Below, piece by piece: positions 12,720 to 28,342 of a DNA stretch of 64,000 nucleotides. The DNA lies in NCBI RefSeq assembly GCF_001014615.2, contig NZ_LBCQ02000015.1, positions 124,001 through 188,000 on the forward strand, in the 5' to 3' direction. How positions within the stretch are numbered: the stretch's first letter is position 1; each line of letters starts with the position of its first letter. Source of the stretch: Aquamicrobium sp. LC103. Lineage in GTDB: Bacteria > Pseudomonadota > Alphaproteobacteria > Rhizobiales > Rhizobiaceae. The notes beneath the pieces were generated by a model. It searched no databases and had not been told where the DNA came from. It saw only the letters and a list, made by a program, of their open reading frames with translations. The position numbers were made by a program, and so were the translations under genes.

Positions 12720-14500
12720 CTCATCGTCTCCATGGGACCGTCCAGCATCTCGCGCGCCCGCAGCAGCTGGCGCGTATAGGCATGCTGCGGATCGGCGAAA
12801 ATCTCCGCGGTGGTTCCCTCCTCGACCATCTCACCAAGCTTCATGACGCCGACGCGGTCGCAGAGCTGGGCAACGACGGCGAGATCATGAGTGATGAAAA
12901 GGACCGACATGCCCAACGTCTCGCGGAGCCGCAGCAGCAGGTCTAGCACCTGTTTCTGCACGGTCGCGTCCAGCGCGGTCGTCGGTTCGTCGGCGATCAA
13001 CAGCTTCGGCTTGCACATCAACGCCGCCGCGATCATCGCGCGCTGCGCCATGCCGCCGGAGAACTGGTGCGGATAATCGTTGAGGCGGTTACGCGCGTCG
13101 ACGACCCCGACGAGATCAAGCAGCTCGGCCGCCCTCTCAAGCGCCTGCTTGCGCGAGATGCCCTCGTGGCGGACAAGCCCTTCGATCATCTGATCGCCGA
13201 CCTTGTGGACGGGCGACAGCGCCATCATCGGGTCCTGGAAGACCGCGCCGATGTCGCGGCCCCGGATCGCCCGCATCTGGCGCTCCTCCAACCCGACCAG
13301 TTCCCGACCGCCGAGCAGAATAGAGCCGCCGGCCACGCGCCCAGGTCGCGGCACCTGACCGAGGATCGAGGCGGTGGTCATCGACTTGCCCGAGCCGGAC
13401 TCGCCCACCAGACCGTAAATCTCGCCCGACGCGATCGAGAAGGAAACGTCGTTGACTACCTTCTGGAACGCTCCCGCATGGCCGGGAAACTCGACGCTGA
13501 CATTCGACAGGCGCAGCACGCTGTCGGTGTTGCGCTTCTCCACGACTGCCGGCGCCGCATGCGCAGCCGGGGCAGACGCCGGCTCGGACTTCTTGCGTCT
13601 TGTGATGACGAGGTCGCTGTTGAAAGCGTCGCGAAAGCCGTCGCCGAGCAGATTGAAGGCGAGCACCGTGATGGTGATCGCCGCGCCGGGCACCAGCGAC
13701 AAAAGCGGCTGCTGGATCTGGAAGCGGCGCGCATCGTCCAGCATCGCGCCCCAGCTCGGGCTACCCGTGGCGACGCCGAGGCCGAGGAAACTCAACATGG
13801 CTTCCAGCAGGATCGCAACACCGGCGAGGATCGACGTCTGCACGGCGATGGGGCCGATGGCGTTGGGCAGGATGTGACGGAACAGGATGCGCGGCACCGA
13901 ATAGCCCTGGATCTCGGCCGCCTGGACATAGGCCTTGGGACGCTCGGCAAGAACGACGGCACGGGTCAGGCGCAGATACGACATCGCGAAGCCCAGGCTG
14001 ACGGCGAGCATCGCATTGGTCAGGCCACGCCCGAAGATGGCGATGAAGGTGAAAGCGAAGAGCAGCATCGGGATCGCCTGCTCGACCTCGACGAGACGCA
14101 TGACGACGCGGTCCCACCATCCGCCGCGATAGGCGACGAAAAGGCCGATCGGCACGCCGACCAGCAAGGCCGGCCCCACCGCCATGGCCACGGCATGCAG
14201 GGCGACGCGCCCGCCCCACATCGCCCGCGACAGGAGATCGCGCCCGAGATCGTCCGTTCCCAGCCAGTTCTGTGCCGAGAAACCCTGGAGGCGCCGCATC
14301 ACGCTCGACGCGTTGGGATCGTGCGGCGCCAGATAGCTGGCGAAGATCGCGACCACCACCAGCATGATGACCCAGCACAGCGCGAACACCGCCGAGGGTT
14401 GCGAAAGCAGCCGCGCGAGGAAGCCGGGCCGCCGGTCGTTCGTCTCCGCAAGCGCCGTTTCCAGCGGCGCCTCCAGCGAATTCGCTGTCTGGTCGCTCAT
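12716..14500 (-). CDS. Fused oligopeptide-type ABC permease (DppC-like) and ATP-binding protein (DppD-like)
   Basis: A single 594-aa chain. Residues ~1-295 are a DppC-like permease with the N-terminal cytoplasmic tail, LGTDDLGRD motif and coupling loop. A ~30-aa Ala/Pro-rich linker (ASAPAAHAAPAV) joins it to a complete ATPase (~320-594) with Walker A GESGSGKSM, signature FSGGMAQRAMIAAAL and Walker B LLIADEPTTALD. There is no stop or frame break between the halves, so the fusion looks genuine; such DppC-DppD fusions are known in Hyphomicrobiales. With the DppF-like and DppB-like neighbours it completes the importer. Confidence 0.92.
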   Translation of the reverse strand: MSDQTANSLEAPLETALAETNDRRPGFLARLLSQPSAVFALCWVIMLVVVAIFASYLAPHDPNASSVMRRLQGFSAQNWLGTDDLGRDLLSRAMWGGRVALHAVAMAVGPALLVGVPIGLFVAYRGGWWDRVVMRLVEVEQAIPMLLFAFTFIAIFGRGLTNAMLAVSLGFAMSYLRLTRAVVLAERPKAYVQAAEIQGYSVPRILFRHILPNAIGPIAVQTSILAGVAILLEAMLSFLGLGVATGSPSWGAMLDDARRFQIQQPLLSLVPGAAITITVLAFNLLGDGFRDAFNSDLVITRRKKSEPASAPAAHAAPAVVEKRNTDSVLRLSNVSVEFPGHAGAFQKVVNDVSFSIASGEIYGLVGESGSGKSMTTASILGQVPRPGRVAGGSILLGGRELVGLEERQMRAIRGRDIGAVFQDPMMALSPVHKVGDQMIEGLVRHEGISRKQALERAAELLDLVGVVDARNRLNDYPHQFSGGMAQRAMIAAALMCKPKLLIADEPTTALDATVQKQVLDLLLRLRETLGMSVLFITHDLAVVAQLCDRVGVMKLGEMVEEGTTAEIFADPQHAYTRQLLRAREMLDGPMETMR

Positions 14501-14536
14501 GTCAGGACGCCTCTGTCATGGATGCAGTGACCGCGA

Positions 14537-15481
14537 TCATTCCGGCCTCACCTTCGGATCGAGAAGCCCGTAGCCGATGTCGACGATCAGGTTGACTACG
14601 ATGATGAAGACGGCGACCACAACCACCACGGCCTGGAGAACCGGCGTGTCGCCGCGATTGATCGAATCGAGGATCAGCGAGCCGAGGCCGGGCACCGAGA
14701 ACACCTTCTCGATCACGAAGGAGCCGCTCAACATCAGTGCCGTCAGCATGCCGATGATCGCGAGAACGGGCATCATCGCGTTCTTTAGGCAGTAGCGCAT
14801 CACCAGTCGCCCGCGCGGGCAGCCGCGGGCCGTCAATGCGCGGGCATATTGCGAGTCGAGCTGCGCGAGCATCGACGATCGTGTGTGCCGGGCGATGTTG
14901 GCCGTGGCTCCGAGGCCGAGCGCCAGGCAGGGCAGGATGAAGCCCCTGACCCAGGGCCAGATGCCGGCGGAAGGCGGTGTGTATCCGGCGGCGGGCAGGA
15001 GCCGCAACTGCACGGCGAAGAACAGCACCAGCAGCAGCGCCAACCAGAAGCCCGGCATGGCGAGCAGCACCGAGACGATGCCGGTAAGCGCGCGGTCGAT
15101 GAATGAGTTGCGGTTGAGAGCCGCGATGACGCCGGTCGGCACGCCGAGCAGAATCGCTATGAAGATGCCTCCGAGCGCCAGCGTCAGCGTGATCGGCAGA
15201 CGATGCGCGATCTCGGCAGACACTTCCAGCCCAGTGACGTAGGAACGGCCGAGATCGCCGCGCAAAGCATTGCCGACCCATTCGAAGAACAGGACCGGAG
15301 CCGGCCGGTCGAGCCCCATCTCCGCGGTCAGGCGGGCTACCGCTTCCGGTGTGGCGCCGTCGCCGAGGATGGCGGCCGGCGCCTGCACTGGAACGAAACG
15401 GAAGAGGATGAACGCGACCAGCGCGACGAGGATGACGACGGGAAGCGCGGCGACAGTTCTAGCGAATGTCAGTTTCCACAT
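14537..15481 (-). CDS. Oligopeptide-type ABC transporter permease (DppB-like)
   Basis: A 314-aa permease with an N-terminal signal-anchor helix, periplasmic loop, and the conserved GDLGRSYVTG and FVIEKVFSVPGLGSLILDSI motifs of DppB. About six membrane segments. It pairs with the permease half of the fusion 36 nt downstream and with the binding protein upstream, from which it is separated by a hairpin. Confidence 0.92.
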   Translation of the reverse strand: MWKLTFARTVAALPVVILVALVAFILFRFVPVQAPAAILGDGATPEAVARLTAEMGLDRPAPVLFFEWVGNALRGDLGRSYVTGLEVSAEIAHRLPITLTLALGGIFIAILLGVPTGVIAALNRNSFIDRALTGIVSVLLAMPGFWLALLLVLFFAVQLRLLPAAGYTPPSAGIWPWVRGFILPCLALGLGATANIARHTRSSMLAQLDSQYARALTARGCPRGRLVMRYCLKNAMMPVLAIIGMLTALMLSGSFVIEKVFSVPGLGSLILDSINRGDTPVLQAVVVVVAVFIIVVNLIVDIGYGLLDPKVRPE

Positions 15482-15538
15482 CCTGGCCTCGTTCTATTTT
15501 CATGGAAAATAATCGCCTGTCCTTTTGCAAACGGGCGA

Positions 15539-15559
15539 GGGGCGGCTTAGCGCCGCCCC
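15539..15559 (-). terminator. Stem-loop between binding-protein and permease genes
   Basis: Perfect 8-bp GC-only arms (GGGGCGGC / GCCGCCCC on the plus strand) with a 5-nt loop, starting 3 nt past the binding-protein stop. It parallels the hairpin after phnD and probably raises the binding-protein share of the operon message. Confidence 0.55.
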
Positions 15560-15562
15560 GTA

Positions 15563-17065
15563 TCACTTCGCCATCTTCACGTCCTTGTAGCGCAGGGCCG
15601 AAGGCTCCCACGTGGTCGTGGCGATTTCCGCGATGGTCTCGCCATTGTAGTGGACGACGCCCGCGGTATCAAAATAGCCGCAATCGAGCGCCTCGTCATG
15701 GATGATCTGTGTCATCTCCTGAAGCAGCGCCGGCTGCTCCTCGGCCGTCGCGGTGAGGGCCCGCTGGTAGAGTTCCTCCAGACGCGGGGGCGGTGCGACC
15801 TTGAACGTATTGGCCGGGCCGTCCTCTGCGAAGCGGAACGGGTAGTAGTTGAACATGCCGCCGTTCTCCGGCGTCATCGTGTTGACGATGAACGGGTAGC
15901 GGCCGGAATAGAAGGTCTGGAAATATTCCGGCGTCGGCATCATGACGATCTCGGCGTCGACGCCGATCATGCCGAAGCTTTCCTTGGTCAGCTCCGAGAT
16001 GATGCGCATGAAGTCGGGGGAAGGGAACTGCAGCGACAGGTTCGAGACGCCGGCTTCCGCCAGCAGCGCCTTGGCACCCTCTATGTCGTATTCATAGGCC
16101 TTCAAGCCAGAAAGATGCGCAGGGTCGCCCTCGTCGAAACGCTGGCTCGGGAACTTGAGCAGTCCGTCATAGCGCGCGGCATTGATGTGTTGGAGCGGCA
16201 TCGCCATGCACAGTGCCTTGCGCACGCGCACGTCGCCTAGCGCGCCGGCGCGGTCGAACATCAACAAATGATAGCGCAGCGTGCTCCAGACGTGGTTGGA
16301 GAAGCCCTGCGCCTCGGCGGTCGGCATCTGCGTCGGATCCCCGTCGACCGCGTCGACCTGGCCGGCCAGCAGCGCGTTGTAGCGCGAGGCGGCATCGGGC
16401 AGGTAGGAAAGCTCGACGCGCTTCGGACCGACCGATTCCGGATCATAATAGTCCCCGAAATAGTCGAAGACATAGGTCGAGCCGGAAACGGTCTCGGACT
16501 GGTTGAAGACGTAGGGGCCGGTGCCGACTGGTTGGCGTTCCCAGATGCCGTCTGCCAGCGCCTTCGGGCTGATCATGTTCAGGCCGCGCTGCGTCAGGGT
16601 GAAGGGAAGCGACGGGCTCGGACTCAGCAGGTCGAAGCGTACGGTGTGGTCGTCGACCTTGACCACCTTGTCGATACCCCCGATGGCCTCGCGCCAGCGA
16701 TTGGAGGCCTTCTGCACATTCTCGATGTTGGCGATCACGGCGTCGGCATTGAAAGGCGTGCCGTCATGGAAGACCACGTCCTCGCGCAGCTTGAAGGTAA
16801 TCTCGGTCGGCGTGACAGTCCACTCGGTCGCGAGCGCAGGCTCGATCGTGGTGCCGTCCGGCGCCATCCGCATAAGGCCTTCGTAGACGAGCTGTGTATA
16901 GGTGGTGTTGGGAGGAAGCTGGGGGTTCCAACCCTGGGGTTCGAAGCCGATGCCCCAGCGCAGCGTTCCATGAGGTTCTGCATAGACGGCGCCGCCGGAG
17001 AAAGCGACGGCGATGCAGCTTGCGACCGCGGTATATTTAGCGCAATCGATTGCTTTCCTTAGCAT
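15563..17065 (-). CDS. ABC transporter substrate-binding protein, oligopeptide family
   Basis: A 500-aa periplasmic receptor of the SBP_bac_5 family: signal peptide in residues ~1-28 ending in VYAEP, then WNPQLPPNTTYTQLVYEGLMR and the FKLREDVVFHDGTPFNADAV block typical of these proteins. The ATG at 17065 has an AGGAGAAAG site; a 13-codon longer reading is less likely. The ligand is unknown, since this family also binds non-peptide compounds, and the catabolic genes nearby argue for a small cyclic or aromatic compound. The putative LacI operator 17042-17053 lies inside its codons 5-8. Confidence 0.93.
   Translation of the reverse strand: MLRKAIDCAKYTAVASCIAVAFSGGAVYAEPHGTLRWGIGFEPQGWNPQLPPNTTYTQLVYEGLMRMAPDGTTIEPALATEWTVTPTEITFKLREDVVFHDGTPFNADAVIANIENVQKASNRWREAIGGIDKVVKVDDHTVRFDLLSPSPSLPFTLTQRGLNMISPKALADGIWERQPVGTGPYVFNQSETVSGSTYVFDYFGDYYDPESVGPKRVELSYLPDAASRYNALLAGQVDAVDGDPTQMPTAEAQGFSNHVWSTLRYHLLMFDRAGALGDVRVRKALCMAMPLQHINAARYDGLLKFPSQRFDEGDPAHLSGLKAYEYDIEGAKALLAEAGVSNLSLQFPSPDFMRIISELTKESFGMIGVDAEIVMMPTPEYFQTFYSGRYPFIVNTMTPENGGMFNYYPFRFAEDGPANTFKVAPPPRLEELYQRALTATAEEQPALLQEMTQIIHDEALDCGYFDTAGVVHYNGETIAEIATTTWEPSALRYKDVKMAK
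17042..17053. promoter_or_regulatory. Putative LacI operator, copy 1 (inside the binding-protein gene)
   Basis: Perfect 12-bp palindrome GCAATCGATTGC, identical to copies at 21244 and 21362. It overlaps codons 5-8 of the transporter binding-protein gene. A repressor there would act as a roadblock just downstream of the promoter, or loop to the other sites. Confidence 0.6.
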
Positions 17066-17162: not shown

Positions 17163-17176
17163 TTACGAATTCGTAA
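17163..17176. promoter_or_regulatory. 14-bp palindrome upstream of the transporter operon
   Basis: Perfect palindrome TTACGAATTCGTAA about 100 nt upstream of the binding-protein start. The AT-rich symmetry suits a regulator site. It does not match the GCAATCGATTGC motif, so a different protein would be involved. Confidence 0.35.
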
Positions 17177-17256
17177 GTCATCATGCGAACGATTGCAAGC
17201 CTATCGCGGAGGTATCGGATCACCCGGCGGGCCGGCGCTTTCGAGCCCTGTATCGC

Positions 17257-17604
17257 TCACGCTTTCTTCTCCGTCAGAGGCATGCAAAGAACGATCAACG
17301 CGGGGACCTGGCCGCGGTTTTCCAGCTTGCGCGCCTCGCCCGGCGCGATACGGCAACTGTCGAGCCTGTGCAACACGGCTTCCTCGTCGCCGGTGCCGAC
17401 GACGATCTCGCCTTCGACCACCAGATAGAGCTTTTCATATGGCGAGGCCGAGAGCGACGTATGGCCGCCCGGCGCGATCTCGGACATGCCCATCCAAAAC
17501 GTTTCCGACGGCCCCGCCTCCATGCCCTGGAGGCGCAGGCAGCGCATGTCGAAATGCTCCGGCGGGTGGTATTGCGGCGCGGCCTCGATCCGGGTCACGT
17601 TCAT
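17257..17604 (-). CDS. Cupin-domain protein
   Basis: A 115-aa single-domain cupin. The centre shows the beta-barrel pattern PGGHTSLSASPYEKLYLVVEGEIVVGTG, but the classical two-His motif is reduced (one His, then Tyr-Glu-Lys), so metal binding is uncertain. It starts within the last 4 nt of the upstream oxidoreductase gene (ATGA overlap), which ties it to the catabolic operon. It could be a small isomerase, decarboxylase or hydrolase, or a ligand-binding accessory; the sequence does not decide. Confidence 0.85.
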   Translation of the reverse strand: MNVTRIEAAPQYHPPEHFDMRCLRLQGMEAGPSETFWMGMSEIAPGGHTSLSASPYEKLYLVVEGEIVVGTGDEEAVLHRLDSCRIAPGEARKLENRGQVPALIVLCMPLTEKKA

Positions 17605-18632
17605 AGGGCCGTCTCCGGCATGATGAAGACGCGGTCGCGACTCGAAGACATTACGGCGCCATAGGCTTCGGCTATCCGGTCCAGCGGAAACTGCGCGTCC
17701 GGCGTTACCGCGAAGGGTTTCAGCGCGCCGTTTTCGAAACCCGGCAAAAGCTCGCGAAGCACGTCGCCCGTTTCCGCGCAGGACAGCGCCAGCGTGTCGA
17801 TGCCGTGATAGCTGTGGCGGCCGCGATAGAACTCGAAGATGTTGAAGTCGACCACCGGGTTGATAGCGGCGATCAGGATCTGTCGGCCAAGCTTGGCGAG
17901 GCTCTTATGGGCGGCGGCGAAATAGGGGTCGCCGACAGTGTTGAAGACGATGGTCGCGCCGCGTCCACCGGTCAGCGCCATGACGCGTTCCGCGACGTCC
18001 TCGCTGCTCACGTCGATGATCTCCACCCGAGCGACGGAATGGCCGGCATAGTCTTCCGGCCGACGGACGACGCCGATCACCCGCGCGCCGCGCCAGGTAG
18101 CGATCTGGGCAGCGGCCTGCCCGACCTTGCCGTTGACGCCCATGATGACCACGACGTCGCCCTCGCCCGGCAGCCCCGCGCGGCGGAAACCCTCTATGGC
18201 GGTGACGAAGGGAACGCCGATGCCTGCGGCTTCCGCGAAGCTCAGACCGGCCGGCTTAGCGACCAGCCCGCCCTGCGGCACGATCACATGCGTGCCGTGG
18301 CTGCCGTCGCGGCGGATGCCGAGGTCGCCGGACGAGCCGAAGACCTCCTTGCCGACCAGCCCGGACGGGCCGGCGACGACCGTGCCGGCAAAATCCCGGC
18401 CCGGCGTGCGCGGGAAGACGGCATAGGGCATGAGCCCCGTCGCGGCCTTCACGTCGGACGGATTGACGGCTGCGGCATGGACCCGCACGACCGCCTCGTC
18501 GTCGCTTTTCAGGACCAGCGGCCCAGTCTCCACGGCAGGGGCGAGAGAGTGGATATCGGTCGCCTTTGCAAGGAGGCGCGCGCGCGTGGCCGGCGTTTCG
18601 AAGGGGACGGCCGCGGAGGCTGCAAGGTTCAA
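17601..18632 (-). CDS. Zinc-independent MDR oxidoreductase (quinone oxidoreductase-like)
   Basis: A 343-aa medium-chain dehydrogenase/reductase. The GroES-like part has VHAAAVNPSDVKAATG and the Rossmann part VVIMGVNGKVGQAAAQIA. The cysteine/glutamate zinc ligands of alcohol dehydrogenases are missing, so an NADPH-dependent enone or quinone reductase is expected. In an operon with a ring-cleaving dioxygenase it might reduce an unsaturated keto acid such as a maleylacetate-like product; that is inference, since the classical maleylacetate reductase is an iron-type enzyme not found here. Confidence 0.87.
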   Translation of the reverse strand: MNLAASAAVPFETPATRARLLAKATDIHSLAPAVETGPLVLKSDDEAVVRVHAAAVNPSDVKAATGLMPYAVFPRTPGRDFAGTVVAGPSGLVGKEVFGSSGDLGIRRDGSHGTHVIVPQGGLVAKPAGLSFAEAAGIGVPFVTAIEGFRRAGLPGEGDVVVIMGVNGKVGQAAAQIATWRGARVIGVVRRPEDYAGHSVARVEIIDVSSEDVAERVMALTGGRGATIVFNTVGDPYFAAAHKSLAKLGRQILIAAINPVVDFNIFEFYRGRHSYHGIDTLALSCAETGDVLRELLPGFENGALKPFAVTPDAQFPLDRIAEAYGAVMSSSRDRVFIMPETAL

Positions 18633-18669
18633 GACAAGACTCCCGAATGAAGTGAAGGAATGATGTGCG

Positions 18670-19578
18670 TCATGACGCGACCGCCTGCGGCAGCGACAGC
18701 ATGGCGCGCGCCTCTGCGGTGCTTGTCAGCGTGCCGCCGAGGTCTTCGATGATACGCCGTGCCTTGGTGACCAGCGCCGCGTTGGACGGCGCCAGCTCGC
18801 CGCGCGAGAGATAGACGCCGTCTTCCAGCCCGACGCGGGCATGACCGCCGGCAAGGAAGGACTGCGCCACCATCGGGAACGCGGCGCGGCCGATGCCGAT
18901 GGCCGTGAAGCGCGCGCCCGCCGGCAGCATGTTGCGGGCGTAGAGCACCGTTTCCGGCGCGGGCTGGAAGCCGTATTTCACGCCCAGCACGAAGGAGCAG
19001 AGCGCCGGGCCCGCGAGCGTGCCATCTGCCAGCAGGTCGTTCATGAAGGCGATGTCGCCGCTGTCGAACAGCTCGATCTCGGGCAAGGCGCCGGCGTCGC
19101 GGATCACCTTCGCCATGCGGCGCACGTTGCGCGGCGTGTTGATGACGACCTCGCCGCCGGAGTTCATCGTGTTGAGGTCGAGCGTGGCGATCTCGGGCTT
19201 CAGCGCCGCGATATGGCCGACGCGCTTTTCCGGCGCCATCAGCGTGGTGCCGGGGCCGGCGATCTTCGGGTCTTCGTCCGAGGGCACGAAACGCCCGCCG
19301 GGGCCGGTCGTCAGGTTGAGGATCAGGTCCGGCCGTGCCTTGCGCAGTGCCTCCACGACCTGCGCGTAATGATCGAGCTCCATCGAGGGACGCCCGGTCT
19401 CGGGGTCGCGCACGTGGATATGGACCACGGCGGCGCCCGCCTCGGCGGCTTTCAGCGAGGAATCGACGATCTGCGCCGGCGTTATCGGCAGATGCGGCGT
19501 CTGGTCCGGCTTGGTCAGATTGCCGGTGATGGCGCAGGTGAGGACCACCTTGCCCTTGTGCATGGCGACGCCGCTCAC
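18670..19578 (-). CDS. Beta-keto acid cleavage enzyme (BKACE, DUF849 family)
   Basis: A 302-aa TIM-barrel zinc enzyme. The VVHIHVRDPETG motif supplies the HxH zinc ligands, and TGPGGRF and the C-terminal GLEDGVYLSRGE are family marks. BKACE enzymes condense a beta-keto acid with acetyl-CoA and split it to acetoacetate plus a new acyl-CoA; Kce of lysine fermentation is the type member and the family has many substrates. Here it may be the last step that feeds ring-cleavage products into central metabolism. Translation may begin at 19578 or at the second Met (19563, MHKGKVVL). Its ATG overlaps the SDR stop by 4 nt. Confidence 0.92.
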   Translation of the reverse strand: MSGVAMHKGKVVLTCAITGNLTKPDQTPHLPITPAQIVDSSLKAAEAGAAVVHIHVRDPETGRPSMELDHYAQVVEALRKARPDLILNLTTGPGGRFVPSDEDPKIAGPGTTLMAPEKRVGHIAALKPEIATLDLNTMNSGGEVVINTPRNVRRMAKVIRDAGALPEIELFDSGDIAFMNDLLADGTLAGPALCSFVLGVKYGFQPAPETVLYARNMLPAGARFTAIGIGRAAFPMVAQSFLAGGHARVGLEDGVYLSRGELAPSNAALVTKARRIIEDLGGTLTSTAEARAMLSLPQAVAS

Positions 19579-20327
19579 AGCAGCCTCCCGCCGTCGACCA
19601 CCAGCGTCGTGCCGGTGGCATAGGTCAGATGCGTGGCGCAGGCGAGGATCGCGTCGGCGACGTCATCCGCCGTCGCGACGCGTTTGAGCGGGATCGTCTG
19701 GCCGATCTTCTGGTTGAACTCGGCACCGCGGCCGGGCACGAAGCCGGTATTTACGACGCCGGGCGAGACGCCCATGACGCGGATTGATGGGGCCAGCGCC
19801 CGCGCCAGCGACTTCACCAGCGTCTCGGTGCCGGCCTTGGCCGCGCAATAGGCAATGTTGGAGCCCGCGCCGTTGCTGGCCGCGATCGAGGAGATGAACA
19901 CCGCCAGCGCGTCGTCGCTGGCCTTCATGAGCGGCATCAGCTCGCGCATGGTGGCGAACTGCCCGCGCCAGTTGACGGCGAACATGCGGTCGATGAAATC
20001 GTCGTCCAGCGCGTCGAGATCGGCGTGGGGGACGGCCTTGGTGAAGCCCGAGGCGTGCACGAGAATGTCGACGCGGCCGAAGCGCTGCTCCAGCTCGCCG
20101 CGCAGCGTCTTCAGCGATGCGGTATCGGTGACGTCGGCCTCGAAGGCGGCATATCCCCTGCCCTCCAGCCCGGCCCTGAGCGCGGCGGCCTCGCGATCAT
20201 CGCGCTCGCCACGGCGGAAGGTGACGGCGACGGTCGTGCCGGCCTGCGCCAATGTCGCTGCCGTCGCGGCACCCACGCCGCCATTGCCGCCTACCACCAG
20301 AGCGATCTTGCCCGCAACGCTACGCAT
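19575..20327 (-). CDS. Short-chain dehydrogenase/reductase
   Basis: A 250-aa classical SDR: cofactor motif GGNGGVGAA near residue 13, the HASG segment, and catalytic Ser-Tyr-Lys seen as SSIAASNGAGSNIAYCAAKAG. The ending TGTTLVVDGGRLL is typical. The start at 20327 (MRSVAGK) is preferred because 28 further in-frame codons would overlap the dioxygenase gene. It probably oxidises or reduces a hydroxyl/keto intermediate. Coupled at its 3' end to the BKACE gene (4-nt overlap) and 7 nt from the dioxygenase gene. Confidence 0.92.
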   Translation of the reverse strand: MRSVAGKIALVVGGNGGVGAATAATLAQAGTTVAVTFRRGERDDREAAALRAGLEGRGYAAFEADVTDTASLKTLRGELEQRFGRVDILVHASGFTKAVPHADLDALDDDFIDRMFAVNWRGQFATMRELMPLMKASDDALAVFISSIAASNGAGSNIAYCAAKAGTETLVKSLARALAPSIRVMGVSPGVVNTGFVPGRGAEFNQKIGQTIPLKRVATADDVADAILACATHLTYATGTTLVVDGGRLL

Positions 20328-20334
20328 GGCGCAC

Positions 20335-21213
20335 CTATTTGATTGGAGGAACGGGCAGCCGGGCCTCGCCGGGCTGCATGACGAATTCATAGTCGAGCAC
20401 GCAGCGCTCATCGGCGGCGCCCTCGTTCTCGGTCCGGTAGCTGCCGATCAAAGCCGGTGTGACGCCGAAGACGGGATCGTCCTCGAGATGCGCGTCGTCG
20501 CCCGGGAAGACCTGGGTGATCAGCGTCTTGTAACCTTCGCGATGGACGAGGAAATGCAGGTGCGCGGGCCGCAGCGGCTGCCGGCGCTGGGCGCGCAGCA
20601 TGTCGCCCGTCGGGCCGTCCATCGGCACCGGGTAGCCCGCAGGCCGCACGCTGGTGAAATGGAAGCGGCCATCCGCATCCGCGGTGAAGACGCCGCGCAG
20701 GTTCATGTCGGCCTGCTGCTCGTCCTGGTTCTCGTAGAGCCCGGCGGGAGACGCCTGCCAGACGTCGACGCGCGCCCCTGCGATCGGGTTGCCCGCGTGG
20801 TCGCGGACCAACCCGCGCATCAGCAGCGGCGTTCCCTGCGTTTCGCTTCGCAGCAGGCTGGCGCCGCTTTCCAGCTCGGGCGCGTTGAGCCGCCAGAACG
20901 GGCCGAGCAGCGCCGAGGCGGTCTCGGTCACGCCGCCGGCCCCATTGTTCATCAGGCACACCAGCGTCGAGACGCCGAGCGCGTCGGAGAAGAGTGCCGC
21001 CTCGTTGTGGCGGTCGTTGCTCGCCTGGCCGATGCGGTTGACGAAGTCGAAGGCGAATTCGAGCTCTTCTTCCGAAACGCTCACCTCGCGAACGAAGGCA
21101 TGAAGATGGCGCACCAGCGCCGACAGGACCTCGGCATGACGCGCGTCCGGCGCCCGGCCGACGGCCTTCAGCACCGCTTCCGTGACATCGCCCTGGTCCT
21201 GGATGAGCATCAT
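20335..21213 (-). CDS. Intradiol ring-cleavage dioxygenase (hydroxyquinol 1,2-dioxygenase-like)
   Basis: A 292-aa non-haem Fe(III) dioxygenase with an N-terminal helical dimerisation domain (~1-95) and a beta-sandwich core. The Fe ligands are visible as Tyr in SPAGLYENQD, Tyr in PAGYPVP and the two His of RPAHLHFLV. The ALLGPFWRLNAPE and GNPIAGARVDVWQASPAG segments are those of the catechol/hydroxyquinol 1,2-dioxygenase group. It would cleave a catechol or hydroxyquinol between the hydroxyls to a muconate or maleylacetate. It is the first gene of the minus-strand arm, with an AGAGAGG site and a LacI-type operator just upstream. The exact substrate is unknown. Confidence 0.9.
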   Translation of the reverse strand: MMLIQDQGDVTEAVLKAVGRAPDARHAEVLSALVRHLHAFVREVSVSEEELEFAFDFVNRIGQASNDRHNEAALFSDALGVSTLVCLMNNGAGGVTETASALLGPFWRLNAPELESGASLLRSETQGTPLLMRGLVRDHAGNPIAGARVDVWQASPAGLYENQDEQQADMNLRGVFTADADGRFHFTSVRPAGYPVPMDGPTGDMLRAQRRQPLRPAHLHFLVHREGYKTLITQVFPGDDAHLEDDPVFGVTPALIGSYRTENEGAADERCVLDYEFVMQPGEARLPVPPIK

Positions 21214-21236: not shown

Positions 21237-21265
21237 GCTAACAGCAATCGATTGCATAATGTCAA
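21237..21265 (-). promoter_or_regulatory. Promoter of the dioxygenase-led operon
   Basis: On the minus strand TTGACA (21265-21260) is followed after 17 nt by a weak GTTAGC -10 (21242-21237). The operator palindrome 21244-21255 fills the spacer, so a bound repressor would block polymerase directly. The -10 is poor, which suits a tightly controlled promoter. Confidence 0.5.
21244..21255. promoter_or_regulatory. Putative LacI operator, copy 2
   Basis: Perfect palindrome GCAATCGATTGC between the -35 and -10 of the minus-strand promoter. Same 12 bases as at 17042 and 21362, and centre-to-centre 118 bp from the latter, a distance that could allow looping. Confidence 0.75.
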
Positions 21266-21332
21266 CTGGAAATTTGCTTATCAGAAGATGTGTCGCTGCA
21301 TCTGGCCCATTTCTATAGTGTTTCTGGCGGTA

Positions 21333-21361
21333 TTGACGCCACAAAACCCAATGCCTAATCT
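21333..21361 (+). promoter_or_regulatory. Promoter of the amidohydrolase pair
   Basis: TTGACG (21333-21338), a 17-nt spacer and TAATCT (21356-21361). The operator at 21362-21373 directly follows the -10 and covers the expected start of transcription. The first amidohydrolase codon is about 120 nt downstream. Confidence 0.55.
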
Positions 21362-21373
21362 GCAATCGATTGC
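21362..21373. promoter_or_regulatory. Putative LacI operator, copy 3
   Basis: Perfect palindrome GCAATCGATTGC abutting the plus-strand -10. Placement across the start site is a classical repressing position. Confidence 0.75.
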
Positions 21374-21489: not shown

Positions 21490-22863
21490 TTGAAGAAGAC
21501 GCTGATCAAATGTGGCTGGCTGGTCACGCAGGACCCCGCCATCGGGGATTTCACCGGTGGCGAATTGCTGATCGAGGGCGATCGCGTCCTTGCCGCGGGC
21601 AAGGCGCTCGACGCCGCCCATGACGAGGTCATCGACGCGTCCGACATGATCGTCATGCCGGGCCTCATCAACGGCCATATCCACGTCTGGCAATGCGGCC
21701 TGCGCGGCATCGGCTCGGAATGGATGGGGCCGGACTACCACGCCAACATCCACGCCAACATCGCCACCAAATACGGCCCGCGCGACAATTATCTCGGCAA
21801 TCTCGTCGGCGCCCTCACCCAGATCGACAGCGGCGTCACCACGGTCATCGACTTCTGCCACAATCTGAAATCGCTGGAGATGGCGGAAGCCGCCATCGAC
21901 GGGCTGGACGAATCCGGCATCCGCGCCGTCTTCGCGCACGGCACCGCCAAGCCGCCCGCGGCACCCGGCGAGACGCCGTTCACCCACGTCCCGCATCCGC
22001 GCGACCGCATCGAGGCGCTGCGCAAGGGCCGCATGGCTTCTCACGACCAGCGCGTCACGCTGGCCATGGCAATCCTCGGGCCGCATTACGGCACGCAGGA
22101 AGTGTTCGAGACCGACGTGCGGCTCGCCCGCGAGTTCGGCCTGTTCTCCACCACCCATGCCACCAAGCCGAACGACAAGTGCATCTCGCCGCGCGGCTAT
22201 CTGGCGCTCGCCAAGGCCGGGCTTCTGGGTCCCGACCACAATATCGTACATGGCAACTATATCGACGACGAGGAGCTGAAGGCGATCGCAGGTTGCGGCG
22301 CGACGGTGACGGCGACCGTGCTGGTCGAGCTGCACGGCCACGCGCCCGACCCGCTGGTGATGCGCATGCGCGCGCTAGGCTCGATGCCCTCCATCGGCAT
22401 CGACGTCGAGCCGATCGTTACCGGCGACATGTTCCGCGAGATGCAGGCCGCACTCTCGCACGCCCGCTGGTCGGCCCACCGCGACAACGCCGCCGAGGGC
22501 AAGCCGTCGCTCTCCGTCATGCCGGTGCGCTCGCGCGAGGCACTGGAATGGGCGACGATCGGCAACGCGCAGGCGATGGGCATCGACAGGAAGGTCGGCA
22601 GGCTGTCGCCGGGCATGAAGGCCGACATCACCATGCTGCGCGCCCGCGACCTCAACATCTTCCCCGTCCACGACCCGATCTACACGATCGTCGAGCAGGC
22701 CGGCGCCAAGAACGTCGATACCGTCATCGTCGACGGCGTGGTGCGCAAGCGCGCCGGCAAGCTGCTCTTCGACGAGGCGCTGCTCGCCACGCGCATGGAC
22801 GAGATGCGCGCGTCCGCCCTGCGGGCGATGGACGAAGCCAATTTCAAGCTCAACGCCGCCTGA
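21490..22863 (+). CDS. Amidohydrolase, AtzA/TrzN/SsnA-like (first of a tandem pair)
   Basis: A 457-aa amidohydrolase-superfamily enzyme if read from the TTG at 21490, which has a GGAG 8-10 nt upstream and aligns with the start of the next gene (LKKTLIKCGW versus MKKTLIRCGW). Metal-site residues: NGHIHVW (HxH), THATK, NIVHGNY and the Asp of SIGIDVE. The subgroup includes chlorotriazine hydrolases, guanine-type deaminases and methylthioadenosine deaminase, so it hydrolyses a C-N or C-halogen bond on a heterocycle or conjugated ring. The substrate is unknown. An ATG at 21382 would add 36 unaligned residues and lies just past the operator. Confidence 0.88.
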   Translation: MKKTLIKCGWLVTQDPAIGDFTGGELLIEGDRVLAAGKALDAAHDEVIDASDMIVMPGLINGHIHVWQCGLRGIGSEWMGPDYHANIHANIATKYGPRDNYLGNLVGALTQIDSGVTTVIDFCHNLKSLEMAEAAIDGLDESGIRAVFAHGTAKPPAAPGETPFTHVPHPRDRIEALRKGRMASHDQRVTLAMAILGPHYGTQEVFETDVRLAREFGLFSTTHATKPNDKCISPRGYLALAKAGLLGPDHNIVHGNYIDDEELKAIAGCGATVTATVLVELHGHAPDPLVMRMRALGSMPSIGIDVEPIVTGDMFREMQAALSHARWSAHRDNAAEGKPSLSVMPVRSREALEWATIGNAQAMGIDRKVGRLSPGMKADITMLRARDLNIFPVHDPIYTIVEQAGAKNVDTVIVDGVVRKRAGKLLFDEALLATRMDEMRASALRAMDEANFKLNAA

Positions 22864-22883
22864 GCGGACCGGGAGGAACCACG

Positions 22884-24248
22884 ATGAAGAAGACACTCAT
22901 CCGCTGCGGCTGGATCGTTTCGCTGGACGACACGATCGGCGACGTCGTCGGGCAGGACATCCTGATCGGAGACGACAAGATCCTTGGCGTCGGCACCAAT
23001 CTCGGCGAGGCCGACGAGGTCGTCGATGCGCGTGACATGATCGCCATTCCCGGCATGGTCGACGCGCATCTGCACACATGGGAGACGGGCCTGAAGGCGA
23101 TCGGCTGCGACTGGCGCCAGGGCGAGTATCTGCGCGACGTCTTCGCCGGCATGAGCACCTGGTTCGAGCCGGACGACAACCACATCGCCACGCTGGCCGG
23201 CGCGCTGAGCCGGCTCGACGCGGGCGTGACCACCCTGCTCGACTACTGCCACAACGTGCGCTCGACCGAGCAGGCGGAGCGGTCGGTGGACGCATTGGAG
23301 GAAGCGGGCATCCGCGCCGTCTTCTGCCTTGGCACCGGCGTCTACCGCCCCGACCAGAAGCCGACCGACGCGGAGCTGCAGCGCATCCATCCGCGCGACC
23401 GCGTCGAGCAGATCCGCAAGCGGCTCTCCAATGAAGAGCGTCTCGTCACCATGTCGCTGGCGATCCCCGGTCCGCACTGGGCCGAGGAGCCGTCGATCCG
23501 CGCCAACCTCGCACTGGCCCGCGAGCTGGGACTGCGCACCTCTTCGCATGCGACGAAGCGCAAGAGCCAGGAGCTGATGCCGGACGGCTATGCCAGCCTG
23601 ACCAGGGAAGGCCTGCTGGGCCCCGACCACAACATCGTGCACGGCAACTATCTGCCCGACGACGAGCTGAAGCTGATGGTCGATGCCGGCATCACTGTCA
23701 CCTCGACCGTGCAGACCGAGATCCGCGGCTATGGCCGTCCGCCGGCGGTGAGCCGCGTGGTGAATTTCGGTGGCCTGCCCTCGCTCGGCGTCGACGTCGA
23801 GCCGAAGATCCCCGGCGACATGTTCCGCGAGATGCAGCTGGCGCTGGCCTACGCGCTCAACGAGCGCGTGCGCGAGGATATCGTCAAGCCGGAGAAGCCG
23901 GTGGAGAACAAGCCGATCTTCGCCCGCGACGCGTTGAAATGGGCGACGATCGGTGGCGCCGAAGCGCTCGGTCTCGGCCACCGTATCGGCACGCTGACGC
24001 CGGGCAAGCAGGCAGACATCGTGCTCTTGCGCGCCAACGACCTCAACCTGTTCCCGATACGCAATGCGCTCTTTTCGGTCGTCGAATTCGCCCATGCCGG
24101 CAATGTCGACGCGGTGATGGTCGACGGCGAATTCCGCAAGCGTGACGGTAAGCTGCTGTATGGCGAGGACAAGGTGCGATCGGTGCGCGCACGCCTGATG
24201 GAATCGTCCGACCGCATCATCCACGAAGCCGGTTACAGGATTCGCTGA
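22884..24248 (+). CDS. Amidohydrolase, AtzA/TrzN/SsnA-like (second of a tandem pair)
   Basis: A 454-aa paralogue of the preceding gene, alignable over its whole length (GVTTLLDYCHN versus GVTTVIDFCHN; GPDHNIVHGNYLPDDELK versus GPDHNIVHGNYIDDEELK). Metal-site residues are kept: DAHLHTW, SSHATK, VHGNY, GVDVEPKIPGDMFREM. The ATG at 22884 has a strong GGGAGGAA site, 20 nt after the first gene. Differences near the HxH motif (WETGLKAIGCDW versus WQCGLRGIGSEW) suggest different substrates or successive steps. Neither gene shows signs of decay. Confidence 0.92.
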   Translation: MKKTLIRCGWIVSLDDTIGDVVGQDILIGDDKILGVGTNLGEADEVVDARDMIAIPGMVDAHLHTWETGLKAIGCDWRQGEYLRDVFAGMSTWFEPDDNHIATLAGALSRLDAGVTTLLDYCHNVRSTEQAERSVDALEEAGIRAVFCLGTGVYRPDQKPTDAELQRIHPRDRVEQIRKRLSNEERLVTMSLAIPGPHWAEEPSIRANLALARELGLRTSSHATKRKSQELMPDGYASLTREGLLGPDHNIVHGNYLPDDELKLMVDAGITVTSTVQTEIRGYGRPPAVSRVVNFGGLPSLGVDVEPKIPGDMFREMQLALAYALNERVREDIVKPEKPVENKPIFARDALKWATIGGAEALGLGHRIGTLTPGKQADIVLLRANDLNLFPIRNALFSVVEFAHAGNVDAVMVDGEFRKRDGKLLYGEDKVRSVRARLMESSDRIIHEAGYRIR

Positions 24249-24408: not shown

Positions 24409-25638
24409 CTAGGCATTGACGGCAGAGACGCGGCATTGCACGCCTTGTCTCTCGAAGAGAGCCGGTTGGAGCTCGGTGCCGAGTCCTGCTGATTCCGGCG
24501 GCTGGATATGGCCGTTTTCCATTCGAGGCAATTCAGTCACAAGGTCGCGATAGTATCCCTTGAGAAACGTGCGAACCACCTCCTGTTTCAAGGCGGCCGG
24601 TGACGCGATTGCCTGATGGATACCGGCCAGGAGGACGATCGGTCCAGTCGCATCATGTGGCGAGAACGGGCGCCCGAAGCTTCGGCAGAGGGCCGCAATG
24701 TCGCGTGTTTCGCTGACGCCGCCGATCCAGCCGGTATCGAACATGACAATGTCAAGCGCCCGGCGCGGCAGCATTTCGCGAAGCCAGTCCACGGTCGCGT
24801 AGGCTTCCGCTCCGACCACATGGCCTCGCACATGCTCTCGGAAGGTTTGAAGGTCGCCCATATTGTGCATCTGGACGGCATCTTCATGCCAGGCCACGTC
24901 AAAGTCATTGAGCGCGGCGGCGATCTTGAGCGCTCCCGGCAACTGCCAACGCGTGTGATAATCGACGTAGATGTCGATGCGCGCGCCAACCGCCTTCCGG
25001 ATCTTTTCGACCGATTTGATGCCGTCCTTGAGGTCAGACAGCGAGATGTCGTAGCCGCGGGTCTTGTCGGCATAGGCGTCGAAAGGCGAGTATTTCATCG
25101 CTGTAAACCCCTCCGCCAACAGTTCCTCGGCAAGCTCACCGGGCTCTTCGAGATTGTCGCCTGCTATCCCGCCGCGACCGCCCTGGACATTGGTCGTCCC
25201 TTCCGCACCCGGTGCATAATGCATCAGGCGGCGTGCCACGCTGTCGCGGCCGGGTCGAACGCAGGTGTTGTAGACCGGAATTCGATCCCGGCAGGCACCT
25301 CCCAGAAGCTGGTAGAGTGGTTGGCCCAGCGCTTTTCCCAAAAGGTCCCAAAGGGCGATGTCGACAGCAGACACCGACTGCAGTTCGATCGAACGCGTCG
25401 GAAAACCCTGGAAGCGATTGTCGAGCCGGTTACGCATGTCCGAGACCAGCCCGTTGATGGCCATCGGATCGCGGCCGAGCAGCAGCGGCGCCAGGACGTC
25501 GTGAGTATAGGCAGCCACGGCGGCGGCGTTACGGAAAGTCTCGCCGAGACCGGTCAGGCCCTCATCGGTGTGGAGGCGCACCCAGCACAGATTGTAGAAT
25601 GGCGGGACCTGAACGGTTTCAACGGAGGTGATCTTCAC
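24409..25638 (-). CDS. Enolase-superfamily (mandelate racemase/muconate lactonizing type) dehydratase or racemase
   Basis: A 409-aa protein with the N-terminal capping domain (VRLHTDEGLTGLGETF) and a TIM barrel. Metal ligands can be read as Asp in IYVDYHTRW, Glu in AWHEDAVQ and Glu in VGAEAY, with a general-base His in SPHDATGP, the mandelate-racemase layout. Probably a sugar-acid dehydratase; substrate unknown. GTG start at 25638. It is the last gene of the minus-strand arm (gntR-permease-permease-this), 3 nt after the permease stop. Confidence 0.88.
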   Translation of the reverse strand: MKITSVETVQVPPFYNLCWVRLHTDEGLTGLGETFRNAAAVAAYTHDVLAPLLLGRDPMAINGLVSDMRNRLDNRFQGFPTRSIELQSVSAVDIALWDLLGKALGQPLYQLLGGACRDRIPVYNTCVRPGRDSVARRLMHYAPGAEGTTNVQGGRGGIAGDNLEEPGELAEELLAEGFTAMKYSPFDAYADKTRGYDISLSDLKDGIKSVEKIRKAVGARIDIYVDYHTRWQLPGALKIAAALNDFDVAWHEDAVQMHNMGDLQTFREHVRGHVVGAEAYATVDWLREMLPRRALDIVMFDTGWIGGVSETRDIAALCRSFGRPFSPHDATGPIVLLAGIHQAIASPAALKQEVVRTFLKGYYRDLVTELPRMENGHIQPPESAGLGTELQPALFERQGVQCRVSAVNA

Positions 25639-25641
25639 GCA

Positions 25642-26529
25642 CTATCCCTTCAGCCGGCTGTCGAGAGAGTCGCGAAGGGCGTCGCCCAGGAAGTTCAAGG
25701 CCAGCACGGTCAGGAATATTGCAGCGCCCGGGAAGACGCCCATCCACCACGCATCCCAATATTGCATGGAGACCGACAGCATCGAACCCCAGGTGGGCGT
25801 GGGCGGCTGAACCCCCAGGCCGAGGAAGGAGAGAGCGCTTTCGGTGATCAGCGCCGTGGATGCCTTGAGCGAGGCATAGACGATCACGTTGCCACGTACG
25901 CTCGGCCAGATGTGCCGCCAGATGATGCGCGCGTTTGAAAAGCCCGCCGCGCGCGCGGCCTGGACGAACTCCACGTCGCGCAGCGAGAGTACCTGGCCGC
26001 GCACAAGGCGCGCGAAGCCGGGAATGTTGACGATGGCGATGGCGATGATTGCGTTGATCAGATCCGGCCCGAGCGTGGCCACGATGGCGAGCGCGAGGAC
26101 CAACATCGGAAAGGCGAGCAGCCCGTCCATGATGCGCATGACGAGGTCATCGAGCCAGCCGCCGTAATAGCCGGTGATCAGGCCGATGGCGACGCCGAAA
26201 ACCAGCGCTATGGCGATGGAGATACCCATCACCTTGAGCGAAGCCGTCGCGCCGTAAATGATACGCGAGAGAATGTCGCGGCCGAGTTCGTCCGTTCCCA
26301 GCCAGTATTGGGCGCTCGGCGGCAGCAGGATGGCCTCGTAATCGATGGTGGCAGGGCCATGGGGGCTGATCCACGGTGCGGTTAGGGCCGCGACGACGAA
26401 GACACCGAGAACTATGATGCCGATCCGTCCAAGGGAATGGCGCCAGACCTTGCGGAGGATGGCGAAGATGGGGCTGCCCCCGGCCGGAAGACCGGATGCG
26501 GCGATAGTGGGATTGGCTTCTACGGTCAT
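25642..26529 (-). CDS. Oligopeptide-type ABC transporter permease (DppC-like)
   Basis: A 295-aa permease: N-terminal helix near residue 40, APWISPHGP, LGTDELGRDILSR, and coupling loop ARAAGFSNARIIWRHIWP. It pairs with the DppB-like protein upstream (7-nt gap). Its ATPases and binding protein are on the opposite strand (28343-31932), so the transporter is split between divergent arms around the GntR gene. Confidence 0.92.
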   Translation of the reverse strand: MTVEANPTIAASGLPAGGSPIFAILRKVWRHSLGRIGIIVLGVFVVAALTAPWISPHGPATIDYEAILLPPSAQYWLGTDELGRDILSRIIYGATASLKVMGISIAIALVFGVAIGLITGYYGGWLDDLVMRIMDGLLAFPMLVLALAIVATLGPDLINAIIAIAIVNIPGFARLVRGQVLSLRDVEFVQAARAAGFSNARIIWRHIWPSVRGNVIVYASLKASTALITESALSFLGLGVQPPTPTWGSMLSVSMQYWDAWWMGVFPGAAIFLTVLALNFLGDALRDSLDSRLKG

Positions 26530-26536
26530 GTTCGCC

Positions 26537-27478
26537 TCACAACCTCACGCGACGGTCCACGAGGGTGTAGCTGAGGTCAGTCAGGAGATTGACGACCAGC
26601 ACTCCCAGCACCACGACCAGGATCGCGCCTTGCACCACCGGAAAATCGCGCTCGAAGATGCCGTCGACGATCATGCGGCCGAGGCCGGGTAGAGAAAAGA
26701 CCGTCTCCGTGACGACGGCTCCGCCGATGAGCGCGCCCATTTGCAGGCCGACCACCGTGATGACGGGAATAAGCGCGTTACGGAGGGCGTGGAGGACGAT
26801 GACGCGGGCCTCGCCCGCTCCCTTCGCGCGGGCGGTGCGGATGTAATCCTGCGACATCACCTGAAGCATCGCGGTACGGGTCTGGCGCATGACGAGCGCT
26901 GCCTGCGCCGTTCCAATCGTGATGACCGGCATGATCATCAGCTTGAGGTTGGTCAGCGGGTCGGTGTGAAAAGGCACATAGCCTGATGGCGGCAGCCAGT
27001 TGAGGCGGATCGACAGCAACATGATGAGAAGGATGCCGACCCAAAAATAGGGAATTGCCATGCTGGAAAGCGAAAGCGCGCTGACCAGGCTGTCGATCCA
27101 GCTGTTGCGCTTCAAGGCCGCGATGATGCCCAGCGGCACGCCTATTACCAGCGATAGAATAACCGCGAGGATCGCGAGCTCGAAGGTGACCGGAATCCGC
27201 GCCGTCAGCATCTCCGCGACCGGCTCGCGCGTACGCAGGGAACGGCCGAGATCGCCGGACAGGGCACGCGTGAGCCAGCGACCATACTGGACCATTATCG
27301 GCTGATCGAGACCCAGCTCCTCGCGCAGCGCGGCACGGTCGGCCGCGTTCGCATCCTCGCCCAGTATCGTCGTGGTGGGATCGCCTGGCAGCATAAGGGA
27401 GGTCGAGAAGACCACGAGGCTCATAACCAGGAGCACGGGAACAAGCTGGAGAAGACGGCGCACCAGAAACGCAATCAC
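26537..27478 (-). CDS. Oligopeptide-type ABC transporter permease (DppB-like)
   Basis: A 313-aa permease with the N-terminal anchor helix, GDLGRSLRTREPV motif, and ETVFSLPGLGRMIVDGIFERDFPVVQ near the C-terminus. Partner of the DppC-like gene. It follows the GntR gene by 22 nt, so the regulator and permeases are likely co-transcribed. Confidence 0.92.
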   Translation of the reverse strand: MIAFLVRRLLQLVPVLLVMSLVVFSTSLMLPGDPTTTILGEDANAADRAALREELGLDQPIMVQYGRWLTRALSGDLGRSLRTREPVAEMLTARIPVTFELAILAVILSLVIGVPLGIIAALKRNSWIDSLVSALSLSSMAIPYFWVGILLIMLLSIRLNWLPPSGYVPFHTDPLTNLKLMIMPVITIGTAQAALVMRQTRTAMLQVMSQDYIRTARAKGAGEARVIVLHALRNALIPVITVVGLQMGALIGGAVVTETVFSLPGLGRMIVDGIFERDFPVVQGAILVVVLGVLVVNLLTDLSYTLVDRRVRL

Positions 27479-27500
27479 GATGAAGATCCTTCAGCCGGCG

Positions 27501-28232
27501 TCATGACTGCTTGTCGGTTTCGCTGGAGAGCACGGCGACGATTGCCGGTTCCGTGGCATCGAAATGCCGTTGCATGGCGGCGAAGGCCGCCTCGGGATCG
27601 TGCGCCTCCACCGTCGCCAGGATGTCGACGTGTCGGCGGAAAGTTTCGTCGGGGTCGCGGACGTGCCGCTGGGCATGGAGGCGGCGCATGCTCTCCTCAA
27701 TAGGAACGCTCAGCGCCTCAAAAAGCCTGGTCATCAACACGTTGCGGCTCGCCTTCACCAGGATCATGTGAAAGGCGGCGTTGGCGGGGATCCAGACCTC
27801 CGAATTGGTGCGGTTTTGACCGAGCACCTCCACCTGCCGACGCAACGCATCCAACTCCGGCTCGGTGATGTGCCGAGCGGCGAGCGATACCGTGTGCGTC
27901 TCGAGCGCACGTCGCAGATCGACCACCTCGCGCAAGCCGTTCGCTGACATGCGCACGGCGATCTGGAAGTACTGCGCGAGCGGCTCCGAACCCTGCTCAC
28001 GAATCGTGGTCGACTTTCCGTGGCGGATCTCCACCACGCCCATTTCTCCCAGACGCTGCAAAGCCTCCCGTACCACAGCCTTGCTCACGGCGAAGCGCCG
28101 GGCGAGCTCGCTTTCGGCGGGCAATTCGTCGCCCGGCTTCAAGCTGCCGCTGCATATCCATTCCGCCATGTGCTGGACAACCGTGTCGGATAGCCTGGGA
28201 CGGGCGATATTTTCCACTTTCACATCGAACAT
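27501..28232 (-). CDS. GntR-family (FadR subfamily) transcriptional regulator
   Basis: A 243-aa regulator. The winged helix occupies residues ~10-75 (LKPGDELPAESELARRFAVSKAVVREALQRLGEMGVVEIRHG), followed by an all-helical FCD domain with metal-type residues (ALETHTVSLAARHI; FHMILVKASRN). It sits between the two arms of the sugar-acid/transport cluster and probably binds the palindromes at 28260-28286 to control both directions. FCD regulators usually respond to small carboxylic acids. Confidence 0.93.
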   Translation of the reverse strand: MFDVKVENIARPRLSDTVVQHMAEWICSGSLKPGDELPAESELARRFAVSKAVVREALQRLGEMGVVEIRHGKSTTIREQGSEPLAQYFQIAVRMSANGLREVVDLRRALETHTVSLAARHITEPELDALRRQVEVLGQNRTNSEVWIPANAAFHMILVKASRNVLMTRLFEALSVPIEESMRRLHAQRHVRDPDETFRRHVDILATVEAHDPEAAFAAMQRHFDATEPAIVAVLSSETDKQS

Positions 28233-28259
28233 TCGGCACCTCTCTTCAACATATTCGAT

Positions 28260-28286
28260 CAGTAGATATCTACTGTCAAGTTGACA
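28260..28286. promoter_or_regulatory. Overlapping palindromic operators for the GntR regulator
   Basis: Two perfect palindromes overlap: CAGTAGATATCTACTG (28260-28275) and TGTCAAGTTGACA (28274-28286, single-base centre). The second contains the TTGACA -35 of the plus-strand promoter. Their place in the 110-nt divergent gap makes them the best candidates for the GntR binding site. Confidence 0.65.
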
Positions 28287-28309
28287 AATCTGTTTCCGCT
28301 ATTTATGCA
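28281..28309 (+). promoter_or_regulatory. Promoter of the binding-protein/catabolic operon
   Basis: Consensus -35 TTGACA (28281-28286), 17-nt spacer, -10 TATGCA (28304-28309). Transcription would start about 25 nt before the binding-protein ATG. The -35 is embedded in the second operator palindrome. Confidence 0.6.
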
Positions 28310-28342
28310 AAACGGAGAAACCTGGCTAGGGAGGAGAACCAA

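Follow-up and report, generated by a model that had tools for sequence, protein, structure and literature searches.

The window, by which we mean the whole stretch of 64,000 nucleotides analyzed here, contains a gene cluster with a LacI-family regulator, a transporter operon, a catabolic operon and two amidohydrolase genes, which were assigned to families as follows:

10840-11874, plus strand: LacI-family repressor gene (Pfam LacI and Peripla_BP_3; recognition helix VHPSTVSR)
11901-17065, minus strand: ABC transporter operon of four genes, binding-protein gene first (ATG at 17065)
11901-12719, minus strand: ATPase of the transporter operon
12716-14500, minus strand: permease-ATPase fusion of the transporter operon
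14537-15481, minus strand: permease of the transporter operon
15563-17065, minus strand: binding protein of the transporter operon, SBP_bac_5 (family-5 solute-binding)
17257-21213, minus strand: catabolic operon of five genes
17257-17604, minus strand: cupin of the catabolic operon
17601-18632, minus strand: ADH/quinone-reductase-like enzyme of the catabolic operon
18670-19578, minus strand: BKACE (beta-keto acid cleavage enzyme) of the catabolic operon
about 19575-20327, minus strand: SDR of the catabolic operon
20335-21213, minus strand: intradiol dioxygenase, first gene of the catabolic operon
21490-24248, plus strand: two amidohydrolase genes (21490-22863, with a TTG start, and 22884-24248)

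The LacI gene lies beyond the transporter operon and is convergent with it. The homology of its product to near relatives begins at residue 5, and its true start may be slightly later than 10840. In an NCBIfam scan, the BKACE, ADH, and dioxygenase proteins stayed below every cutoff listed and the SDR stayed below the cutoffs of the best 25 of 226 families, while the first amidohydrolase passed one cutoff among the best 25 of 45, that of a subfamily named 'hypothetical protein'. Judged from the enzyme families, the catabolic operon could catalyze intradiol cleavage, then reduction, and then beta-keto-acid cleavage. A second, separate catabolic cluster at 24409-35015 has an FCD-type GntR regulator (27501-28232), another oligopeptide-type ABC transporter, mandelate-racemase-like enzymes, and an RraA-like protein.

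In the region between the dioxygenase and amidohydrolase genes, the earlier note had described a perfect 12-bp palindrome, GCAATCGATTGC, in two copies. A search of the window found both copies exactly at 21244-21255 and 21362-21373, and in addition a third perfect copy at 17042-17053, which that note had not mentioned. One perfect copy thereby heads each of the three transcription units of the cluster. The predicted operators and the promoter elements around them are:

17042-17053, no strand: perfect predicted operator GCAATCGATTGC, at codons 5-8 (AIDC of MLRKAIDC) of the binding-protein gene
17185-17196, no strand: imperfect predicted operator GCGAACGATTGC, upstream of the transporter gene in the cupin-transporter gap, 143 bp upstream of the 17042 site
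21244-21255, no strand: predicted operator GCAATCGATTGC, between the -35 and -10 elements of the dioxygenase promoter
21265-21260, minus strand: -35 element of the dioxygenase operon, TTGACA, followed by the palindrome in the spacer
21333-21361, plus strand: promoter of the amidohydrolase operon (TTGACG at 21333-21338, 17 bp, TAATCT at 21356-21361)
21362-21373, no strand: predicted operator GCAATCGATTGC, starting at the base that follows the amidohydrolase promoter's -10 element

Three exact copies in the window compare with 0.03 expected, and none of 100 shuffles reached three. When up to two mismatches were allowed, the window contained 5 copies versus 5.73 expected and thus no excess, so that the signal is confined to the exact copies. 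The genome-wide search proposed by the earlier note showed that the palindrome is not frequent at unrelated positions: the 6.04 Mb on 34 contigs contain 4 exact copies, three of them in the present cluster and the fourth on contig C32 within a DUF192 coding sequence, together with 17 further places that have one mismatch. The relaxed motif GCAAnCGnTTGC occurred 10 times genome-wide versus 8 times for the reversed control, which is control level, and therefore only the exact copies stand out in the genome as well. The six additional GCAAnCGnTTGC matches and the C32 copy all lie within an open frame (7 of 7, which is weak evidence for coding in GC-rich DNA), and an ORF start is found within 350 bp in four of these seven. 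No GCAAnCGnTTGC site is present in the second catabolic cluster at 24409-35015. A score matrix built from 25 alphaproteobacterial sites of other genomes gave the three perfect window sites scores of 24.7, 24.7, and 21.5, all above the highest score of 40 simulated windows (19.3). A palindrome that had arisen by chance, or that belonged to a general genomic repeat, would be in line with the copy inside the DUF192 gene, with the lack of an excess at two mismatches and with the control-level count of the relaxed motif. However, the exact-copy counts in the window and in the genome rule out such an origin, and the copies are also kept in relatives; its probability is negligible.

Orthologues of the LacI protein with 85-87% identity are encoded in L016 and L017 (Mesorhizobium microcysteis, M. 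sediminum) and in G284 (L075/L076). Between LacI and the first amidohydrolase, the genes follow the same order in L017, G284, and the window; the L016 locus ends at a contig end. When the regulatory regions of three species are aligned, the operator blocks prove to be conserved, whereas much of the flanking DNA has diverged.

The placement of the two divergent palindromes relative to their promoters, in the spacer on the left and after the -10 element on the right, was borne out by the element positions. The leftward dioxygenase promoter has a weak -10 element, which is either TTAGCC or GTTAGC at a distance of 18 or 17 bp from the -35 element. A strict consensus promoter scan called neither of the divergent promoters, and promoter and terminator scans of both regulatory regions found nothing at the scan thresholds. 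Both promoter/operator arrangements are kept in two related species according to the alignment. The conserved block of the left arm in the three-species alignment is CTAACAGCAAWCGATTGCATnATGTCAA, and that of the right arm consists of ATTGAC and later TAA plus two bases plus TGCAATCGATTGC, which means that a -35 element and a TAA-type -10 element adjoining the operator are kept in all three species.

The transporter operon is preceded by a different arrangement. Its upstream site at 17185, likewise absent from the earlier note, overlaps a weak candidate promoter (TTGCAA at 17198-17193, 17 bp, TACGAA at 17175-17170); a promoter scan of this upstream region found nothing. As the matrix score of 18.5 for the 17185 site is not significant by itself (highest of 40 simulated windows, 19.3), we base this site on its conservation in two other species, where it is found at the same place (L017, 16313; L075, 15979). 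The conserved block of the three species upstream of the transporter is CTTGCAATCGTTCGCAYGATG, and the one within the binding-protein gene is GCAATCGATTGCGC. The transporter promoter region also contains a perfect 14-bp palindrome, TTACGAATTCGTAA, at 17163-17176. Only its TACGAATT part is kept in two relatives, and it may therefore be a part of the transporter promoter.

The in-gene site at 17042 is likewise kept in L017 and L075. As it is located in a coding region, it was in principle possible that this site is kept to preserve the protein sequence KAIDCA rather than as an operator. The peptide KAIDCAKY is indeed kept in all three species, and sites in coding regions make up less than 1% of the LacI-family sites in the compilation of Ravcheev et al. 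(2014; PMC4052901). However, the 12 bases are invariant in the three species while the neighboring codons vary, and they represent a perfect copy of a motif that has four genomic copies and that recurs in the same cluster. We therefore regard conservation for the protein sequence as unlikely and treat the 17042 site as a predicted operator in the following.

The protein encoded at 10840-11874 matched PF00356 with 42.5 bits (cutoff 27) and PF13377 with 138.3 bits (cutoff 26.5), and thus has the helix-turn-helix and the periplasmic-binding-protein-like ligand domain of LacI-family members. Even palindromes with a central CG are the operator rule of this family (PMC4052901), and GCAATCGATTGC is of this kind; the symmetry that had been called typical of LacI-family operators fits the family rules as given in PMC4052901 and PMC2978694. 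A further rule pairs the TVSR recognition helix (Arg at AA-20) with a G at NT-6 (Camas et al., PMC2978694), and the helix VHPSTVSR and the outermost G of the 12-mer agree with it. In every LacI relative that we compared, Ser directly precedes T(V/A)SR, and the position in front of this Ser is variable (P, Y, A, S, R, V). No operator match was found upstream of lacI in the window (best matrix score -4.4). L016 and L017 have an operator with one mismatch upstream of lacI (9958 and 9936, respectively), which has no counterpart in the window, and autoregulation of lacI may therefore come and go among relatives. Autoregulation was reported for 72% of the regulators in PMC4052901 and is thus common, but not defining.

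The LacI orthologue is rare and patchy. With a threshold of E 1e-80 or better, it was found in 4 of 394 genomes of the family, 9 of 297 of the order, and 2 of 299 of the phylum, in samples that overlap and that each count the own genome. For the analysis of sites, we compiled 21 orthologue genomes of alpha- and betaproteobacteria with identities of about 45% or better; these genomes are not independent, since they include several Mesorhizobium-type, Cupriavidus, and Burkholderia relatives. The set leaves out more distant loci and L025, whose LacI relative is 36% identical and whose fetched locus has no exact GCAAnCGnTTGC copy. In the stretches fetched around lacI, GCAAnCGnTTGC was present in 17 of the 21 genomes with 46 sites, which is the highest total among the 256 CG-centered palindromes of that form. 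The runner-up, the GC-rich GGCGnCGnCGCC, had 28 sites, also in 17 genomes. Among the 46 sites are several that are not necessarily operators, such as the one at 12254 in L017, which is inside a region that matches the permease-ATPase. Of the genomes that lack GCAAnCGnTTGC near lacI, G100 has two copies with one mismatch beside lacI, and in G613, G647, and G457 an exact copy precedes a dioxygenase gene at another genomic location, a few bases past a TTGACC element; lacI is on a different contig or over 1 Mb distant in these three genomes. As these unlinked genes keep the site, mere gene linkage fails to explain the association of site and LacI. Regulation in trans is suggested by L090, L091, and L093, from three genomes of one genus, in which the dioxygenase promoter carries a perfect operator although the LacI and dioxygenase genes are unlinked.

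The co-inheritance of site and regulator was analyzed with the dioxygenase homologues (E 1e-70 or better) of 19 of the 297 order genomes. All seven homologues from genomes with the LacI orthologue had an exact GCAAnCGnTTGC copy within 400 bp upstream, the nearest one 27-41 bp from the gene; three of these seven genomes are ones with unlinked lacI and dioxygenase genes. Second copies were found at 62 bp in G621 and at 148 bp in the window, the latter being the right-arm operator. In contrast, none of the 12 homologues from genomes without the LacI orthologue had a site even with one mismatch, although only some 340 bases were available in one case. This contrast corresponds to a Fisher p of 2e-5 when relatedness is ignored; five of the seven site-bearing genomes belong to one genus, and the independent evidence amounts to about three lineages. 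The families f1 and f35 include both states. Two LacI-bearing genomes of the order, G550 and G597, have no dioxygenase at E 1e-70, yet have sites near lacI.

The target genes were followed in 15 other orthologue genomes, a search that left out L024, L036, and L082-L084. The dioxygenase-SDR-BKACE-ADH-cupin set was complete in eight (L017, G284, L078, L081, L018, L019, L022, L023). In three others (L020, L079, L080), a part of it was present where the stretch ended, and in four (G171/L016, L085, L086, L021) it was not seen. The operator is thus conserved together with the orthologous regulator and its targets, which is what characterizes a local LacI regulon. Tandem sites occur between divergent lacI and dioxygenase genes in L020 (872 and 895) and L081 (9484 and 9505), and their spacings of 23 and 21 bp are close to the 22-bp peak that is tied to cooperative binding in PMC4052901. 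Additional site pairs, each 129 bp apart, are found in L075 (2462 and 2591) and L016 (2837 and 2966) close to where a paralogous binding-protein gene begins, one of these four sites being exact and three having one mismatch. In L075, genes for an Amidohydro_3 protein and a thiamine-pyrophosphate enzyme lie between this paralogous gene and lacI. Pfam scans covered 20 ORFs of relatives, 8 of which gave no match, probably because their frames were wrong, and were set aside. The regulon may be larger in these relatives.

As the genome contains 12 other LacI-like matches, one of these paralogues, or a PurR-like regulator, could in principle bind the sites. PurR-type operators share the core of the motif, and GCAAACGATTGC is contained in the H. 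influenzae PurR site list (PMC3739930). What argues against another regulator is that the motif follows the orthologues of the 10840-11874 protein across alpha- and betaproteobacteria, and that the site tracks this orthologue despite its patchy occurrence in the family and the order. The 12 paralogue loci, with about 1.5 kb of flank each, lack the motif, which is a weak control as the motif is rare. The binding of the sites by another regulator is thus very unlikely. The assignment made by the earlier note, according to which the LacI protein encoded at 10840-11874 recognizes the palindromes and controls both arms jointly, is strongly supported by comparative genomics as a prediction.

A possible repression loop had also been considered in that note. 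Loops of the lac type need tetramers, and the C-terminal tail of E. coli LacI tetramerizes. Our protein matches E. coli LacI up to LacI residue 327 of 360, which corresponds to residue 339 of 344 of the query. As only five query residues are left, the lac-type tetramer helix is missing. The spacing of the divergent operators is 118, 118, and 121 bp in the window, L017, and G284, corresponding to 11.24, 11.24, and 11.52 turns at 10.5 bp, and the spacing of the transporter pair is 143, 146, and 142 bp, or 13.62, 13.90, and 13.52 turns. Neither the C-terminal tetramerization helix nor a conserved helical phase, both features of lac-type looping, was thus found, and the loop remained unsupported. 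As gal-type loops form between dimers, and as both regulatory regions have two operators each in three species, the repressor could still link the two divergent operators, or those of the transporter, in the manner of lac or gal and shut both arms jointly, and more than one site is also found before about 20% of the regulated operons in PMC4052901. The missing tail and the variable helical phase speak against this, as does the position of the divergent operators, each of which by itself overlaps or adjoins a promoter of its own; bridging is improbable.

We consider it highly likely that the palindromes are operators of the LacI repressor encoded at 10840-11874, which would silence the three transcription units jointly until an inducer releases it. 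The sites, their positions, their rarity, their conservation, and their co-inheritance with the LacI orthologue are directly seen in the genomes, and the binding, the repression, the in-gene roadblock, and the inducer are what we infer. Most likely, the mechanism is promoter occlusion and roadblock at the three transcription units. Without inducer, a repressor dimer on each operator would block all three units at once. At the left arm, the dimer between the -35 and -10 elements would occlude the promoter of the dioxygenase operon, and at the right arm, the dimer just after the -10 element, at the transcription start, would block the amidohydrolase operon. At the transporter operon, one dimer would be positioned over the weak candidate promoter, and another one, 143 bp further on at codons 5-8, could serve as a roadblock or auxiliary site. 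The imported compound or one of its breakdown products is the probable inducer, which would free all three units together.

This type of switch is well known, but here it very probably guards a pathway of the aromatic-ring-cleaving type and not a sugar pathway. In the survey of Ravcheev et al. (PMC4052901), carbohydrate metabolism is controlled by 176 of the 182 groups to which a pathway was assigned, and neither 'aromatic' nor 'dioxygenase' occurs in its main text. A set of intradiol dioxygenase, BKACE, and amidohydrolase is therefore an unusual LacI target. Operators within coding regions are uncommon as well. The open literature, with RegPrecise and subscription papers outside its scope, contained no account of the present regulon among the matches listed. 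We slightly favor the view that this LacI clade of alpha- and betaproteobacteria has left sugar sensing for an aromatic or N-containing compound, or for its ring-cleavage or beta-keto-acid product. The clade would control the dioxygenase/SDR/BKACE/ADH/cupin operon, and in the present lineage also the amidohydrolases and the oligopeptide-type ABC importer, the latter with an in-gene roadblock operator. If the inducer is not a sugar, a rare non-carbohydrate branch would be added to the LacI family. A well-supported regulon with regulator, operator pattern, and targets is now available for an uncharacterized ring-cleavage cluster, which permits a hunt for the substrate via the release of the repressor. 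It would also provide a biosensor part whose operator is short and has few other copies in its genome.

In comparison to known systems, the cluster resembles E. coli lac in that the repressor combines a LacI helix-turn-helix with a periplasmic-binding-protein-like sensor. It differs from lac in that E. coli LacI has a C-terminal tail that is absent from the present protein. The Cupriavidus sites GCAAACGTTTGC match the core of the E. coli PurR operator. The natural lac operator is asymmetric (PMC2978694), unlike the present palindrome, and lac has an operator inside a structural gene besides its promoter operator (the lacZ site, PMC4052901), as we found for the binding-protein gene. PurR-type operators are similar in having GCAA as outer half-site and a CG center, with GCAAACGATTGC occurring in both (H. 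influenzae list, PMC3739930). The present clade is distinguished from PurR by its recognition helix, with PS, YS, AS, and others before TVSR/TASR, and by its local catabolic targets, and the LacI protein scored 167 with the NCBIfam PurR model, the cutoff being 501. The cluster also resembles the local LacI regulons described by Ravcheev et al. (2014; PMC4052901), which have even CG-centered palindromes near promoters, a repressor gene beside its targets, several operators per regulatory region, and transporter as well as catabolic genes; besides its target pathway, the operator inside a coding region, a position held by less than 1% of their sites, sets the present regulon apart from these.
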